Positions 16,438 to 27,695 of a DNA stretch of 36,216 nt are shown here, piece by piece. Position numbers and translations under genes: made by a program. The DNA lies in assembly GCA_027083445.1 (NCBI GenBank), contig JALWOP010000450.1, positions 1-36,216 of the forward strand, written 5' to 3'. The stretch comes from Planctomycetota bacterium. GTDB lineage: Bacteria > Planctomycetota > UBA1135 > GCA-002686595. The notes under the pieces were generated by a model, which was not told where the DNA came from, ran no database searches, and worked only from the letters and a program-made list of their open reading frames with translations. Each line of letters opens with the position of its first letter. The stretch's first letter is position 1.

Positions 16438-17100
16438 ATGAGCGACGCCTCCACTGCAGCCCCCGCCCGCCTGGAACGCTGCCCCAATTGCAACTCCAGG
16501 CTCCCGGAGACACCGGTCTCGATCTGCCCCTACTGTGTCTTCCCCCTGGGGACACGCACGGGCGAGACGAGCGTTGAGGGCGAGAGCCCGGCCCACGCCC
16601 GCATCCTGCGAGTTGCCGAGCACGCCAAATACCAGGAGACCCTCGCCATCGTGCCCCCCGAGAACCGGGAGTATCAGCGGGGGCGCTTGGCGATCTTCCG
16701 GGGCAAGGCGGCCCTGGTCGTCGCGGTGGCAGTGGTTGCGCTGGCAGCCCTTCTGGTAGGTGGCGCCTTGGCGGGCTATTGGCTCACCTGGGTAGGGGTG
16801 GCTGTAGCCGTCTTGGGAGTCGCCTGGATCCTCAAGGGACGGGCCGCCTGCAAGCGGGCCGTGGCCCTGCCGCTCCTGCGGCGACCGAGCATGATCCTGA
16901 ACCGCCGTAGCGAAACCGAGATCCGAGGCTGGAACGGAGAGACGACCTACTACTTCGAGCTCGAGTTTGAAGATGGGACCGTGGCGGAGTTCCGCTATCC
17001 CGGCCATGGCGCCAACGAGGAACCCTATACGAGCAACCTCCCGGGGGTGGCCTTCACCCGCGGCACGGACCTCTTGCTCTTCAAGCACATTCGGGTATGA
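16438..17100 (+). CDS. zinc-ribbon membrane protein, unknown function
   Basis: The 220-residue product has an N-terminal treble-clef-like zinc ribbon with two CxxC pairs (C15-PN-C18 and C30-PY-C33). A polar stretch follows, then a hydrophobic region at about 85-125 that could make two membrane helices. The beta-rich C-terminal domain (TYYFELEFEDGTVAEFRYPG, then FTRGTDLLLFKHIRV) resembles the DUF2500 type, in which a small soluble domain follows a membrane anchor; I am only moderately sure of that likeness. Its TGA stop overlaps the ATG of the downstream YtxJ-like gene (ATGA at 17097-17100), so the two are probably translationally coupled. Confidence 0.75.
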   Translation: MSDASTAAPARLERCPNCNSRLPETPVSICPYCVFPLGTRTGETSVEGESPAHARILRVAEHAKYQETLAIVPPENREYQRGRLAIFRGKAALVVAVAVVALAALLVGGALAGYWLTWVGVAVAVLGVAWILKGRAACKRAVALPLLRRPSMILNRRSETEIRGWNGETTYYFELEFEDGTVAEFRYPGHGANEEPYTSNLPGVAFTRGTDLLLFKHIRV

Positions 17101-17435
17101 GCCTCCCCACCGATCCCGCTGAAGCCCTCACGCTCCTACGAGAGGCCTCGCGCAGTCTCCCGGTCGTCGTCTTCAAGGCCTCCCCCACCTGACCGGTGAG
17201 CCTACGCGCCGAGGCCGAGTTCGATGCCTGGCGCGGGTCCCTCGGGGAGGGACGAGTGCAATCCCATCGTATCGACGTGCTCAGCCAGCGCGCTCTAGCC
17301 CGGGGATTGACCGCGGAGTTGGGCATCGACCACGAGTCTCCCCAAGCCCTCGTCTTCACCGATGGAGAACTCTCGGCCCACGCCAGCCACGCTGATCTGG
17401 TCCAGGCCTGGTTCCGCCAGAAGACCGGCTGTTGA
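17097..17435 (+). CDS. ytxJ: putative selenoprotein: YtxJ-type monothiol bacilliredoxin with in-frame TGA (Sec) at the active site
   Basis: Read from the ATG at 17097 with TGA 17190-17192 as selenocysteine, this is a 112-residue thioredoxin-fold protein. The residues before the TGA are VVVFKASPT and after it PVSLRAEAEFDAW, so Sec32 replaces the Cys of the family's KxSxxCPVS motif. Further family signatures follow in frame: IDVLSQRALARGLTAELGI, then DHESPQALVFTDGELSAHASHADL. YtxJ proteins (known family) are low-molecular-weight-thiol redox proteins linked to bacillithiol, acting on mixed disulfides through that one Cys. The only other Cys is the last residue (C112), a possible resolving thiol. 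Evidence against a plain nonsense mutation: the stop falls exactly on the catalytic codon, both flanks keep frame and conserved residues, and a SECIS-like hairpin follows. A GTG start at 17196 would give 79 residues lacking the first strand and active site. Start and upstream stop overlap (ATGA). Confidence 0.85.
17190..17235 (+). promoter_or_regulatory. Sec codon TGA and candidate bacterial SECIS hairpin
   Basis: After the TGA (17190-17192), CGCGCC (17205-17210) pairs perfectly with GGCGCG (17230-17235), and AGGC (17212-17215) with GCCT (17226-17229). One G (17211) is bulged. The ten-base apical loop (17216-17225, CGAGTTCGAT) contains a GT pair, as bacterial SECIS loops usually do. The loop begins 23 bases after the TGA, within the spacing known for bacterial SECIS elements. 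SelB with Sec-tRNA would bind here. GC-rich coding DNA can form hairpins by chance, so the support is its position and strength together. Confidence 0.65.
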
Positions 17436-17540: not shown

Positions 17541-18245
17541 TCACCAGTTGTGGCGCCGGCTGGTGACCTCCATCAACTTGAAGGGCCCGGGCTGGAAGGC
17601 GTCGTAGACGATGGTGGTCATCTTGAGGGTGTCGGCATCGACGAACTCGATCACCGTGTCGTAGGCCTGACGGATGCCGAGGGATGGATCCTCGGTCACC
17701 CCCGAGAGGGTCGCGGTCGAAGTCGCCTCATCAAAGGTTCCCCGCGCCTCCGTGGAGTAGGTTCCCATCGAGTCGAAACCGACCGAAGTGTACTCACCGC
17801 TGCGGCGGTCGAACCCCAGGTACTGCAGGGACTCCACCGAGTATTCACCCATGCCGGGGAAGGTGAAGGTCGTGCTTCCGCTGATGCGGAGAAAGCGTCC
17901 TCCAACCACCGACTCGTGGGTCATGACCGCCTTGGACTCCAAGGGCGGCTGACCGGGGGCGATCCACATCTTCACCTCGGCATCGAAGGTCCCCGCATAG
18001 GAGGTCAGGCGGGCGTGCTCCTCGCTGGGCTGCGCCAGCTCCATGGCGCGCACCTGCAGAGCCTGGCGCTCCGCGGGATCGAGGTCGATCAGGTTGCGCA
18101 GCGCCTGCTCGGGCTTGGCCTGCCCCGGTTTGACCTGTTCAGGCCTGGGCTGCTCGGGCTTGGGCTCGTCCTGTCGGGCGCTTCCGCGGGCGGTAAGAAG
18201 AAGCAGGGCCGGGGTCAGGAGAGCGAAGGGGAGGAGGTAGCGCAT
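17541..18245 (-). CDS. DUF1579 family secreted protein
   Basis: This exported protein has 234 residues. The signal peptide is MRYLLPFALLTPALLLLTARG. A low-complexity linker of Pro-Glu-Gln-Lys/Arg units follows (EPKPEQPRPEQVKPGQAKPE). Residues about 75-234 match the DUF1579 pattern: EEHARLTSYAGTFDAEVKMW near the start, VVGGRFLRIS, the YLGFDRRSGEYTSVGFDSMG core, then a C-terminal VTSRRHNW. DUF1579 proteins form small lipocalin-like beta barrels and are abundant in Planctomycetota; their function is unknown. The ATG at 18245 is preferred over a TTG at 18254. A TATCCT hexamer (18278-18283, minus strand) lies 32 bases upstream. It converges on the selenoprotein gene with 105 bases between, in which I see no clear terminator. 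Confidence 0.85.
   Translation of the reverse strand: MRYLLPFALLTPALLLLTARGSARQDEPKPEQPRPEQVKPGQAKPEQALRNLIDLDPAERQALQVRAMELAQPSEEHARLTSYAGTFDAEVKMWIAPGQPPLESKAVMTHESVVGGRFLRISGSTTFTFPGMGEYSVESLQYLGFDRRSGEYTSVGFDSMGTYSTEARGTFDEATSTATLSGVTEDPSLGIRQAYDTVIEFVDADTLKMTTIVYDAFQPGPFKLMEVTSRRHNW
18095..18170 (-). repeat. degenerate Pro-Glu-Gln-(Lys/Arg) coding repeat
   Basis: Within the DUF1579 gene, a short unit encoding variants of KPEQ/RPEQ/KPGQ recurs about five times in succession, seen as alternating GGGCTTGG, GGTTTGAC and GGCCTGGG blocks on the plus strand. It encodes an extended polar linker between the signal peptide and the domain, and its length could vary between strains. Confidence 0.55.
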
Positions 18246-18307
18246 GGTCGTCAAGGAGTGGGAAAGGGAGCCGCTCGAGGATAGCCGGGGCCCGGGGTAG
18301 CTGGGGT

Positions 18308-23828: not shown

Positions 23829-26800
23829 ATGCGATGGCCCCTGCTCCTCCTCCCGGCGCTCCTCTGCGCCTCCCTCTCCGCCCAGGACCTCTCCTCCTCC
23901 TTCGTCCTGCCCGAAGGACTGGCGCTCAGCCTCTGGGCGGAATCTCCCCAGCTCTTCAACCCCACGGCGATGGACGTCGATATGTGGGGCCGGGTTTGGG
24001 TCACGGAGGCGGTCAACTACCGCCAGTGGGACGGCCGCAACCCGGGCTTGCACCGCGAGGGCGGTGATCGAGTCGTGATCCTGGCCGACAAGGATGGGGA
24101 TGGTCGCTGCGACAGCTCCACGGTCTTCGTCCAGGACCCGGACCTGACCTCTCCGCTGGGGATCTGCGTCATCGGCAAGCGAGTCTTCGTGAGCTGCTCG
24201 CCGAACATCTTCGTCTACACCGATACCGATGGGGACGACCACGCCGACAAGAGGGAGGTGTTCCTTACCGGCTTCGGTGGGTTCAACCACGACCACGGCG
24301 TGCACTCGATCGTTGCGGGAGACGACGGCTGGCTCTACCTTGCCGTTGGGAATGCCGGCCCGCACATCGTGCGCGACAAGAGCGGCTTCGAACTGCGCTC
24401 GGGGAGCATCTACACCGGCGGCTCCCCCTACAACACCCACAACGAACCGGGCCTGGTCTCCGACGACGGCAGGGCTTGGACCGGTGGCCTGATGCTTCGC
24501 GTACGGCCCGACGGAACCCAGCTAGAGGTGGTCGCGGACAACTTCCGCAATCCCTACGAGATCGCCCGCGACTCCTTTGGGAACCTCTACACCGGCGACA
24601 ACGACGACGACGGGAACCGGTCCTGCCGCCTCGTCTGGGTCGCGGAGGGGGCCGACTACGGCTACTTCTCAGAGGATGGAACGCGCTATTGGCGTGCGGA
24701 TCGCCGCCCGGGCCAGAACACGCCGGACGCCCACTGGCACGTGGACGATCCGGGAGTCATGCCCCCCGGATCGATCACCGGGGCCGGAGCTCCCACGGGA
24801 GTCGCCATCTATGAGAGCCGAGATTCGAGTGACCCGATGGCCTCCTTCAATGGAGCGGTGCTCGATGCCGATGCAGGCGCGGGGCTGGTCTATGCCCACC
24901 TGCCCGAGCGGGTCGGCGCGGGGATCTTCCCCCGCCGTTCGGTCCTGCTCAACCACACACAGGATGGCGAAGGCGGTCGCTCACGCTGGTTCCGCCCGAG
25001 CGATCTCCTCGTTCTTCCGGACGGGTCGATCCTGGTGGCCGACTGGTATGACCCGATGGTCGGTGGACACGGTGCCGGAGACCGCGAAGCCTATGGACGC
25101 CTCCTGCGCATCGCCCCCCAAGGAGCACGCGACACCTGGGAAGTACCACCCCTGCGCCGCGCCACCCCCCAGGAGGTCGTACGTTTGGGTCTCTCGGGCC
25201 CACACGCCTTCCTGATCCAAGCCCTGGGTAGCCCCAGCCCCTCGATCCGGGCCACGGCCCGGGAGCGCCTTCTGGCGGACGGGGAGCTGGCCTTCGAGGA
25301 ACTGCGCAGCCTGGCCGGGGACGAGAACCCCCGCATCGCCGCCCGGGCGGTGCAGGCACTGGCCCTCCTGTCGGACGAGGGCCGCGAGTTGGTCGAAAAG
25401 GTACTCCTCCACCCCAGGGCGGAGATGCGTGCGGTGGCCCTGCGCTCCCTCGACAGCGAGGATCCAGCACGCCTCGCGCCCCACGTGCCGAGCCTCTCCC
25501 GGGACCAGGACCCCTATGTGCGCGCGACCCTGGCCCGGCTCCTGCGAGACTATGACCACGACCTGCGCCTGGCGGCGCTCGTCCAGCTCTCGAATCTCTA
25601 CCCCGGGGACGATCGCTACTACCTGGAGTCGCTGGGCATCGGTGCCGAGGGGTTGGAAGCCGAACTCCTCTCCAAGCTCGGCCCCCTGCGGGAGCAGGGC
25701 GAAGAGCGTTATCTGGAGATCCTCTGGCGCCTGCACCCCCCCGAGATGGTGGAGGAACTCGTCGCGGTCGCAAGCGACCCCGAGCGTCCGGCCGAGCTAC
25801 GCGCCCGCATGATCGATGCCCTGGCTTTCGTACCCACGCGGGAGGCCGCCGACGCGATGTTCATCCTGAGCGCCACCGGCCCCGCCGACCTGCGTGCCCA
25901 TGCCCGCTGGTGGTCTCGTCAGCGCGCGACGAACCTCTGGCGCGCCTTCGACTTCGAGTCGGAAAGCGATCCCAATCTCGAGGATGCCACCCGCGTTTTC
26001 GCCAGCGGAGTCCTGCGTGACCCCCGTGTGGTGGATATCGACGTCGACGTGACCGGCCACACCCACCTGATCCTGGTCACCACCGATGGCGGCGACGGCA
26101 ACGGCTGTGACTGGGCCGACTGGATCGCACCGCGCTTCATCCTGGAGGATGGCTCCGATACGCCCCTCGAATCACTGGGCTGGATCTTTGAAAGCCACGG
26201 TTGGGGGGAGTGCCGCTTTGGCAAGAACACTGAGGGCGGTCCCCTGCGCGTAGGCGAGGACGAATTCAGCGAAGGCATCGGCACCCATGCCGCCGCCCAG
26301 ATCGTGGTCCTGATCCCCCCGACGGCTGTTCGCTTCGTCGCCCAGGCCGGTCCCGATGCGGGTGGAACCTCGCAGGGGTGCGGTACTTCGATCGAGTTCC
26401 AGGTCTGGGTGCGCGGCAAGCCGGTGGGCGCCGAAACCCGGCGCTGGACCGAGGCCCTGCGGGCAGGGGATGTGGAACTGGCCCGTGAGATCGGCAAGGA
26501 CCCCGCCGGGGGATTGCTGCTCGTCGCTCTGGCCCAGGAGGGGGCCCTCTCCGATGAGGTGCGTGCGGCAGCCGGCGAGACCCTCTTCCAGAACCCCGAC
26601 CCGAGCGTGCGCGCCCTGGCGGCGGCCCACTTCCGGGTCCCCGGACAGGAAAAGGCTCTGCCCCCGCTCGATGAGCTCCTCTCGCTGCCCGCTGACGCGG
26701 GTCGCGGACGTGAGGTTTTCTTCTCGGAGCAGGCCTCGTGCAGCTCCTGTCACGCCTTCGAGGGGCGCGGCAACGACATCGGTCCGGACTTGACCGAGAT

Positions 26801-27695
26801 CCACGCCAAGTACGACCGGAGCCAGCTCCTCGATGCGATCCTGAACCCCTCGGCCGCGATCTCGTTCGGCTACGACACCTACGTCGTGCGCACGGTGGAC
26901 GGTCTGATCTACTCGGGCTTCATCCTCGCCGAAGGTGAGGACCTGGTCCTCAAGGACACCCAGGGACACCGCCACGCGATCCCCACCGACGAGATAGAGG
27001 TCCAGAAGAAGCAGGAGCTCTCGGTCATGCCCCAGGACGTGGCGAGGAACCTTTCGCCCCAAGAGCTCGCTGACCTGATCGCCTTCCTCTCGGCGTCCCC
27101 TCAGAGCGCGCCGCATTGGGGTGAGCCGATCGAACTATTCAACGGTCACGACCTCGACGGCTGGGTCGCCATCCCCTCCAACGAGACCCCCGAGGGTGGA
27201 GCCGTCTGGTCCGCGGGGGATGGAGTCTTGCACTGCACGGGCCACCCGATCGGCTATCTACGCACCGAGGCGGACTACGAGAGCTTTGAGCTGACCCTCG
27301 AGTGGCGTTTCCTCCCCGAAGAGGGCCCAGGCAACTCCGGTGTGCTTCTGCGCATGGTGGGCGAGGACAAGGTTTGGCCGAAGAGTATCGAAGCCCAGCT
27401 CCAGTCGGAGCATGCAGGCGATATCTGGAACATCGATCACTTTCCGATGGCCGTCGCTCCCGAGCGTACCCAGGGACGTCATACGCTGGCTCTGCTCCCA
27501 AGCAACGAGCGCCCCCTGGGGGAGTGGAACCGCTACCGCATCCGGCTCGACCGCCGCGAACTCACCCTGGAGGTAAACGGACTGGTGCAGAACCGCGCCC
27601 ACTGGTGCGAAGTGGTCCCGGGGAAGATCTGCCTGCAGTCCGAAGGAGCGGTGATCGAGTTTCGCAACATCGTCTTGCGCCCGATCCTCGACTGA
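23829..27695 (+). CDS. PVC-type membrane-bound dehydrogenase / HEAT / NPCBM / cytochrome c / 3-keto-disaccharide hydrolase fusion
   Basis: This exported multidomain protein has 1288 residues. Order: signal peptide (MRWPLLLLPALLCASLSAQ); dehydrogenase-like beta-propeller typical of Planctomycetota proteins (about 20-430; FVLPEGLALSLWAESPQLF, DGRCDSSTVF, GFNHDHGVHS, NPYEIARDSFGNLYTGDNDDDG); HEAT-like repeats (about 450-690); NPCBM carbohydrate-binding domain (about 705-865; GDGNGCDWADW, EFSEGIGTHAAAQIV); cytochrome c with heme motif C971-SS-C974-H975, GPDLTEI, and a Met (SVMPQDVA) as likely distal ligand; and a DUF1080/3-keto-disaccharide hydrolase domain (about 1100-1288; LFNGHDLDGWVA, GNSGVLLRM, WNRYRIRL, GAVIEFRNIVLRP). 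The set suggests oxidation of a sugar, electron transfer to the heme, and hydrolysis of the keto-sugar product (inference). Convergent with the CPBP gene with no bases between the stop codons. Confidence 0.93.
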   Translation: MRWPLLLLPALLCASLSAQDLSSSFVLPEGLALSLWAESPQLFNPTAMDVDMWGRVWVTEAVNYRQWDGRNPGLHREGGDRVVILADKDGDGRCDSSTVFVQDPDLTSPLGICVIGKRVFVSCSPNIFVYTDTDGDDHADKREVFLTGFGGFNHDHGVHSIVAGDDGWLYLAVGNAGPHIVRDKSGFELRSGSIYTGGSPYNTHNEPGLVSDDGRAWTGGLMLRVRPDGTQLEVVADNFRNPYEIARDSFGNLYTGDNDDDGNRSCRLVWVAEGADYGYFSEDGTRYWRADRRPGQNTPDAHWHVDDPGVMPPGSITGAGAPTGVAIYESRDSSDPMASFNGAVLDADAGAGLVYAHLPERVGAGIFPRRSVLLNHTQDGEGGRSRWFRPSDLLVLPDGSILVADWYDPMVGGHGAGDREAYGRLLRIAPQGARDTWEVPPLRRATPQEVVRLGLSGPHAFLIQALGSPSPSIRATARERLLADGELAFEELRSLAGDENPRIAARAVQALALLSDEGRELVEKVLLHPRAEMRAVALRSLDSEDPARLAPHVPSLSRDQDPYVRATLARLLRDYDHDLRLAALVQLSNLYPGDDRYYLESLGIGAEGLEAELLSKLGPLREQGEERYLEILWRLHPPEMVEELVAVASDPERPAELRARMIDALAFVPTREAADAMFILSATGPADLRAHARWWSRQRATNLWRAFDFESESDPNLEDATRVFASGVLRDPRVVDIDVDVTGHTHLILVTTDGGDGNGCDWADWIAPRFILEDGSDTPLESLGWIFESHGWGECRFGKNTEGGPLRVGEDEFSEGIGTHAAAQIVVLIPPTAVRFVAQAGPDAGGTSQGCGTSIEFQVWVRGKPVGAETRRWTEALRAGDVELAREIGKDPAGGLLLVALAQEGALSDEVRAAAGETLFQNPDPSVRALAAAHFRVPGQEKALPPLDELLSLPADAGRGREVFFSEQASCSSCHAFEGRGNDIGPDLTEIHAKYDRSQLLDAILNPSAAISFGYDTYVVRTVDGLIYSGFILAEGEDLVLKDTQGHRHAIPTDEIEVQKKQELSVMPQDVARNLSPQELADLIAFLSASPQSAPHWGEPIELFNGHDLDGWVAIPSNETPEGGAVWSAGDGVLHCTGHPIGYLRTEADYESFELTLEWRFLPEEGPGNSGVLLRMVGEDKVWPKSIEAQLQSEHAGDIWNIDHFPMAVAPERTQGRHTLALLPSNERPLGEWNRYRIRLDRRELTLEVNGLVQNRAHWCEVVPGKICLQSEGAVIEFRNIVLRPILD

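Follow-up and report, generated by a model that had tools for sequence, protein, structure and literature searches.

The closest described system to the gene reported here is the bacilliredoxin BrxC (YtxJ) of Bacillus subtilis and Staphylococcus, a thioredoxin-fold protein of about 110 residues whose one catalytic residue lies in a TCPxS-type motif; it also has a HESPQA motif and occurs in hosts with BshC. BrxC of B. subtilis de-bacillithiolates Gap, BrxB, and Bdr (reviewed in PMC8945050). The second point of comparison is provided by the selenocysteine (Sec)-containing glutaredoxins and thioredoxins with UxxC and UxxT motifs (PMC13188914), which have the thioredoxin fold, carry Sec N-terminal on the active-site helix, have Cys homologues in relatives, and are assigned to PF00462, PF00085, PF13192, and other families. 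The 2026 inventory of prokaryotic selenoproteins comprises 119 families and subfamilies, and BrxC/YtxJ, bacilliredoxin, PF11009, and TIGR04019 are all absent from it (PMC13188914); the suggestion of the earlier note that YtxJ may not be among the established selenoprotein families holds against this inventory. We found no literature joining 'selenoprotein' with 'bacilliredoxin' or 'YtxJ', and an earlier mention is possible in the Deng 2026 survey. That survey (Cell Rep), which the inventory cites, reportedly covers groundwater and contains unvalidated candidates.

We analysed a 36,216-nt stretch of planctomycete DNA (hereafter the window) and identified in it a gene for a monothiol-type bacilliredoxin (BrxC/YtxJ) whose sole catalytic residue is, we are highly confident, selenocysteine (Table 1). 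The encoded protein shares the fold, the size, the position of the single catalytic residue, the HESPQA motif, and the BshC-containing host with BrxC, but Sec, encoded by UGA, replaces the catalytic Cys. Like the Sec glutaredoxins and thioredoxins, it carries Sec N-terminal on the active-site helix of a thioredoxin fold and has Cys homologues in relatives; unlike them, it belongs to PF11009 and has the motif UPVS, and the Sec-form BrxC of a congeneric species (G001) is without any second Cys. A known redoxin family is very probably present here in a Sec form that is served by an ordinary bacterial Sec system. With the family missing from the 2026 inventory, this is most likely the first Sec-containing bacilliredoxin, in which one planctomycete genus has exchanged the sole catalytic residue of a monothiol-type, bacillithiol-dependent redoxin for Sec. 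If true, the selenoproteome gains a family and selenium use is joined to bacillithiol redox chemistry.

Table 1. Features of the Sec-form brxC locus and of selD in the source genome (G000); coordinates refer to the window unless a locus or contig is named.
Feature	Position	Strand	Basis
Sec-containing BrxC/YtxJ gene	17097..17435	+	translation, PF11009 match, AlphaFold2 model, PDB fold match
In-frame TGA, probably read as selenocysteine	17190..17192 (codon 32)	+	TGA also in G001; Cys in homologues
Candidate bacterial SECIS hairpin	17205..17235	+	CGCGCC.AGGC-(CGAGTTCGAT)-GCCTGGCGCG
selD, itself a selenoprotein gene	L010:1501-2439 = G000 contig C365:6730-7668		in-frame UGA and SECIS-like hairpin
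Upstream gene, function unassigned	16438..17100	+	two Zn-ribbon-like CxxC pairs, then hydrophobic stretches
DUF1579 protein, convergent neighbour	17541..18254	-	PF07617, 88.4 bits

The open reading frame starts with ATG at 17097, ends with an ordinary TGA stop at 17433-17435, and encodes 112 residues with U at residue 32 (MSLPTDPAEALTLLREASRSLPVVVFKASPT-U-PVSLRAEAEFDAWRGSLGEGRVQSHRIDVLSQRALARGLTAELGIDHESPQALVFTDGELSAHASHADLVQAWFRQKTGC). The TGA at codon 32 is its single internal stop, and stops are present in each of the other two forward-strand frames across the gene. With a residue placed at the TGA, the product matches PF11009 (BrxC) over residues 9-101 (64.9 bits, E 6.6e-18; cut-off 24.2 bits). 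With Cys scored in place of Sec, TIGR04019 (YtxJ) gives 66.7 bits, which is below the model cut-off of 77.25 bits and sets the gene apart from BrxC (YtxJ) proper; we therefore claim membership in the Pfam family and not strict YtxJ equivalogy. The U32 motif FKASPT-U-PVS replaces the sole catalytic Cys of KxSxxCPxS, and the TGA aligns with a Cys (column 32) that does not vary in any of the 16 Cys-form sequences of alignment A1. No second BrxC was found among the matches of the source genome, whose assembly is ~87% complete.

The gene is also encoded in G001, the protein of which is 62% identical to the window BrxC and has its TGA at the identical codon (FKASPT-U-PVS), and neither of the two genes contains any other stop or frameshift. 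Comparison of the window gene with that of G001 yielded a dN/dS of 0.13 before the TGA and of 0.31 after it, which indicates that both halves of the Sec-form gene are under purifying selection. A Cys-form brxC disrupted by a nonsense change, real or introduced in sequencing, would fit with the draft state of both Sec-form genomes (477 and about 850 contigs) and with the single base change that separates TGC from TGA, but the TGA at the matching codon in G001 makes a base or sequencing error in the window very unlikely, and the shared TGA together with purifying selection on both sides, persisting past the stop, makes gene decay very unlikely. Moreover, the stop falls on the only codon at which Sec would be expected, and the genome has every Sec gene. 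A pseudogene is thus nearly refuted and we consider it extremely improbable. The earlier note had read the TGA as a replacement of the redox Cys with family motifs and frame kept on both sides, had considered Sec a simpler explanation than random nonsense, and had named stray stops or frameshifts in a close relative as contrary evidence; the alignment to the invariant Cys, the PF11009 match across the single internal stop, and the intact G001 gene with its TGA at codon 32 bear this out. Termination at the UGA with a shorter protein made from GTG 17196, whether or not a leader peptide of 31 residues precedes it, draws on the presence of that GTG after the TGA in the window. The corresponding codon in G001 is however GTC, hence the GTG start is not conserved, the residues before the TGA are themselves conserved and selected, and the product would, judging by the structural model, be left without the first strand of the thioredoxin fold and without the catalytic residue. 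We give such a downstream start almost no credence. Gene callers would either truncate BrxC at this codon or begin it farther along, and the active site would be lost.

Readthrough of the UGA could in principle insert an amino acid other than Sec, namely Trp, Cys, or Gly, through a reassigned code or a suppressor, and reassignment of UGA is known in some lineages. Against this, TGA is the stop codon of seven of the eight assigned window genes and of the Sec-form gene itself, which argues that UGA is not reassigned, and the source genome contains a complete Sec system. It comprises selA (474.5 bits) and the adjoining selD (341 bits) on contig C365, selB on contig C453 (320.9 bits, over the cut-off; 357.9 bits combined with its neighbour), and tRNA-Sec (75.6 bits), which is also called by ARAGORN with the anticodon TCA. 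The selD gene bears a similar in-frame TGA at its CAGU-AAK site (CAG-UGA-GCAGCCAAG), followed by a SECIS-like hairpin (TCACGCA-GGTCT-TGCGTGA) with the loop GGUCU 32 nt past the UGA. SelD is a selenophosphate synthetase and, unlike BrxC, belongs to a known selenoprotein family; since it likewise has an in-frame UGA where homologues have Cys and a hairpin after it, it serves as an internal positive control. We therefore regard insertion of another amino acid as very unlikely. The two checks proposed in the earlier note, for homologues at the U32 position and for Sec machinery in the source genome, returned Cys in relatives and TGA in G001 for the former and selA, selB, selD, and tRNA-Sec for the latter, so that its proposal of a Sec form of the YtxJ family is supported by the Sec genes, the TGA of G001, and the PF11009 match. 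In G001, selA is present and the CAGU-AAK site of selD likewise carries TGA; a search of this 72% complete assembly for tRNA-Sec gave no hit. Across the planctomycete family, 74 of 81 genomes encode tRNA-Sec, which indicates that the Sec trait is old in this family, and with tRNA-Sec nearly universal there, more unlisted selenoproteins may exist.

A PF11009 protein is encoded in 30 of the 81 family genomes, and an internal stop occurs only in the source genome and G001. Searches with PF11009 revealed no further internal stops in the 154-genome class set, in an even sample of 392 phylum genomes, or in 23 genomes of another class. A contig search of a wider genome collection retrieved only two planctomycete loci, both of the Cys form, a plasmid search two distant ytxJ, and a search of viral contigs no BrxC homologue. 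Profile searches covered genomes of this phylum, and a Sec-form BrxC outside it is possible. Forty-six extracted Cys homologues have TGC or TGT at the codon aligned with U32, the motif used for extraction having admitted only C or U at that position. In the phylogenetic tree the two Sec proteins form one clade (support 100/97) within Cys orthologues of the same family. This placement, together with the shared upstream gene, points to a single replacement of Cys by Sec in an orthologous gene, and the restriction of the Sec form to two genomes of one genus likewise indicates a single evolutionary event. The Sec form and its close Cys orthologues in a shared genomic setting are a clean natural pair for studying what benefit Sec gives an enzyme without a resolving cysteine. 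Three genomes of the family tree (G008, G068, G071) have two BrxC copies each, which belong to different subgroups.

A hairpin follows the UGA in both Sec genes (CGCGCC.AGGC(C)-loop-(G)GCCTGGCGCG), with the loop 23-24 nt past the UGA and G within the first two bases of the loop. In the window the apical loop spans 17216-17225, starts 23 nt past the UGA, and has G as its second base. We scanned the two Sec genes and the 46 Cys genes with limits that reflect bacterial SECIS geometry, i.e., a loop of 3-14 nt that starts about 16-37 nt after the codon and has G in its first two bases. The Sec genes took ranks 1 and 2 of 48, with hairpins of -20.8 and -16.3 kcal/mol versus a mean of -4.9 (sd 4.4) in the 46 Cys genes. 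A small apical loop bearing G has been described for the SECIS (PMC1088965), and the selD SECIS candidates of the source genome and G001 provide an internal comparison for the BrxC hairpin. Between the window and G001, synonymous change in the 14 codons past the UGA amounts to 1/9, in comparison to 29/55 in the remainder of the gene (p 0.03); an equally low synonymous fraction (0.12 or less) was found in 4 of 240 Cys-Cys pairs. Synonymous resampling of the hairpin gave p 0.16 for the window and 0.075 for G001, neither significant alone, and dinucleotide shuffles of the post-UGA stretch gave z-scores of -1.36 (51 nt) and, for the window, -0.68 (48 nt). The shuffle z-scores are unimpressive and the case for Sec was therefore not rested on the SECIS; two Sec forms are too few sequences for covariation of the hairpin. 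The candidate hairpin is likely to be the SECIS in both genes, for which the comparison with synonymous resampling is only suggestive.

The AlphaFold2 model of the window protein (pLDDT 95.4) has a thioredoxin fold in which residue 32 immediately precedes helix 33-48, where thioredoxin-fold proteins have their catalytic residue. The best fold match in the PDB is 3iv4 (TM 0.72), which is also the nearest solved relative by sequence (E 3.8e-7) and has a Cys that aligns with U32. The G001 protein contains no Cys at all and the only Cys of the window protein is its last residue, which is unconserved; with no conserved Cys in either Sec form, Sec must act alone, like the single Cys of BrxC. Both Sec forms differ from BrxC further in having A where the Cys forms carry W in the WHxSH motif, and their binding site may differ, possibly as an adjustment of the pocket. 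BshC is encoded in the source genome (286.7 bits, over the cut-off) and in 71 of the 81 family genomes, and was not found in the incomplete assembly of G001. Its presence in the source genome indicates that bacillithiol is probably made and that the substrate system is probably there.

We infer that Sec is incorporated at residue 32 and that the Sec form is catalytic. SelA would convert Ser-tRNA-Sec to Sec-tRNA with selenophosphate supplied by SelD, and SelB would carry the Sec-tRNA to the in-frame UGA under the direction of the hairpin located 12-43 nt downstream. U32 lies at the N-terminal end of helix 33-48, and its selenolate may then attack mixed disulfides of proteins with bacillithiol (protein-S-S-bacillithiol), whereby bacillithiol would move onto U32 as a Se-S adduct. 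This adduct could be resolved, as with the Cys form, by free bacillithiol or by the bacillithiol disulfide reductase (Bdr). The usual advantages of Sec are a lower pKa, faster exchange, and easier rescue from over-oxidation.

The upstream gene and the Sec gene overlap, the TGA stop of the former sharing bases with the ATG of the latter. A homologue of this gene is located directly before brxC in G001 (64%) and at loci L112, L114, L115, L050, and L051; several Cys-form genomes of the family have this arrangement. Its product has no Pfam match and is possibly a functional partner of BrxC. The convergent DUF1579 neighbour is likewise kept beside brxC in G001 (L109), with an identity of 46%. At 23829-27695, the window encodes a 1288-residue protein that combines DUF7133, HEAT repeats, NPCBM, cytochrome c, and a 3-keto-disaccharide hydrolase domain.
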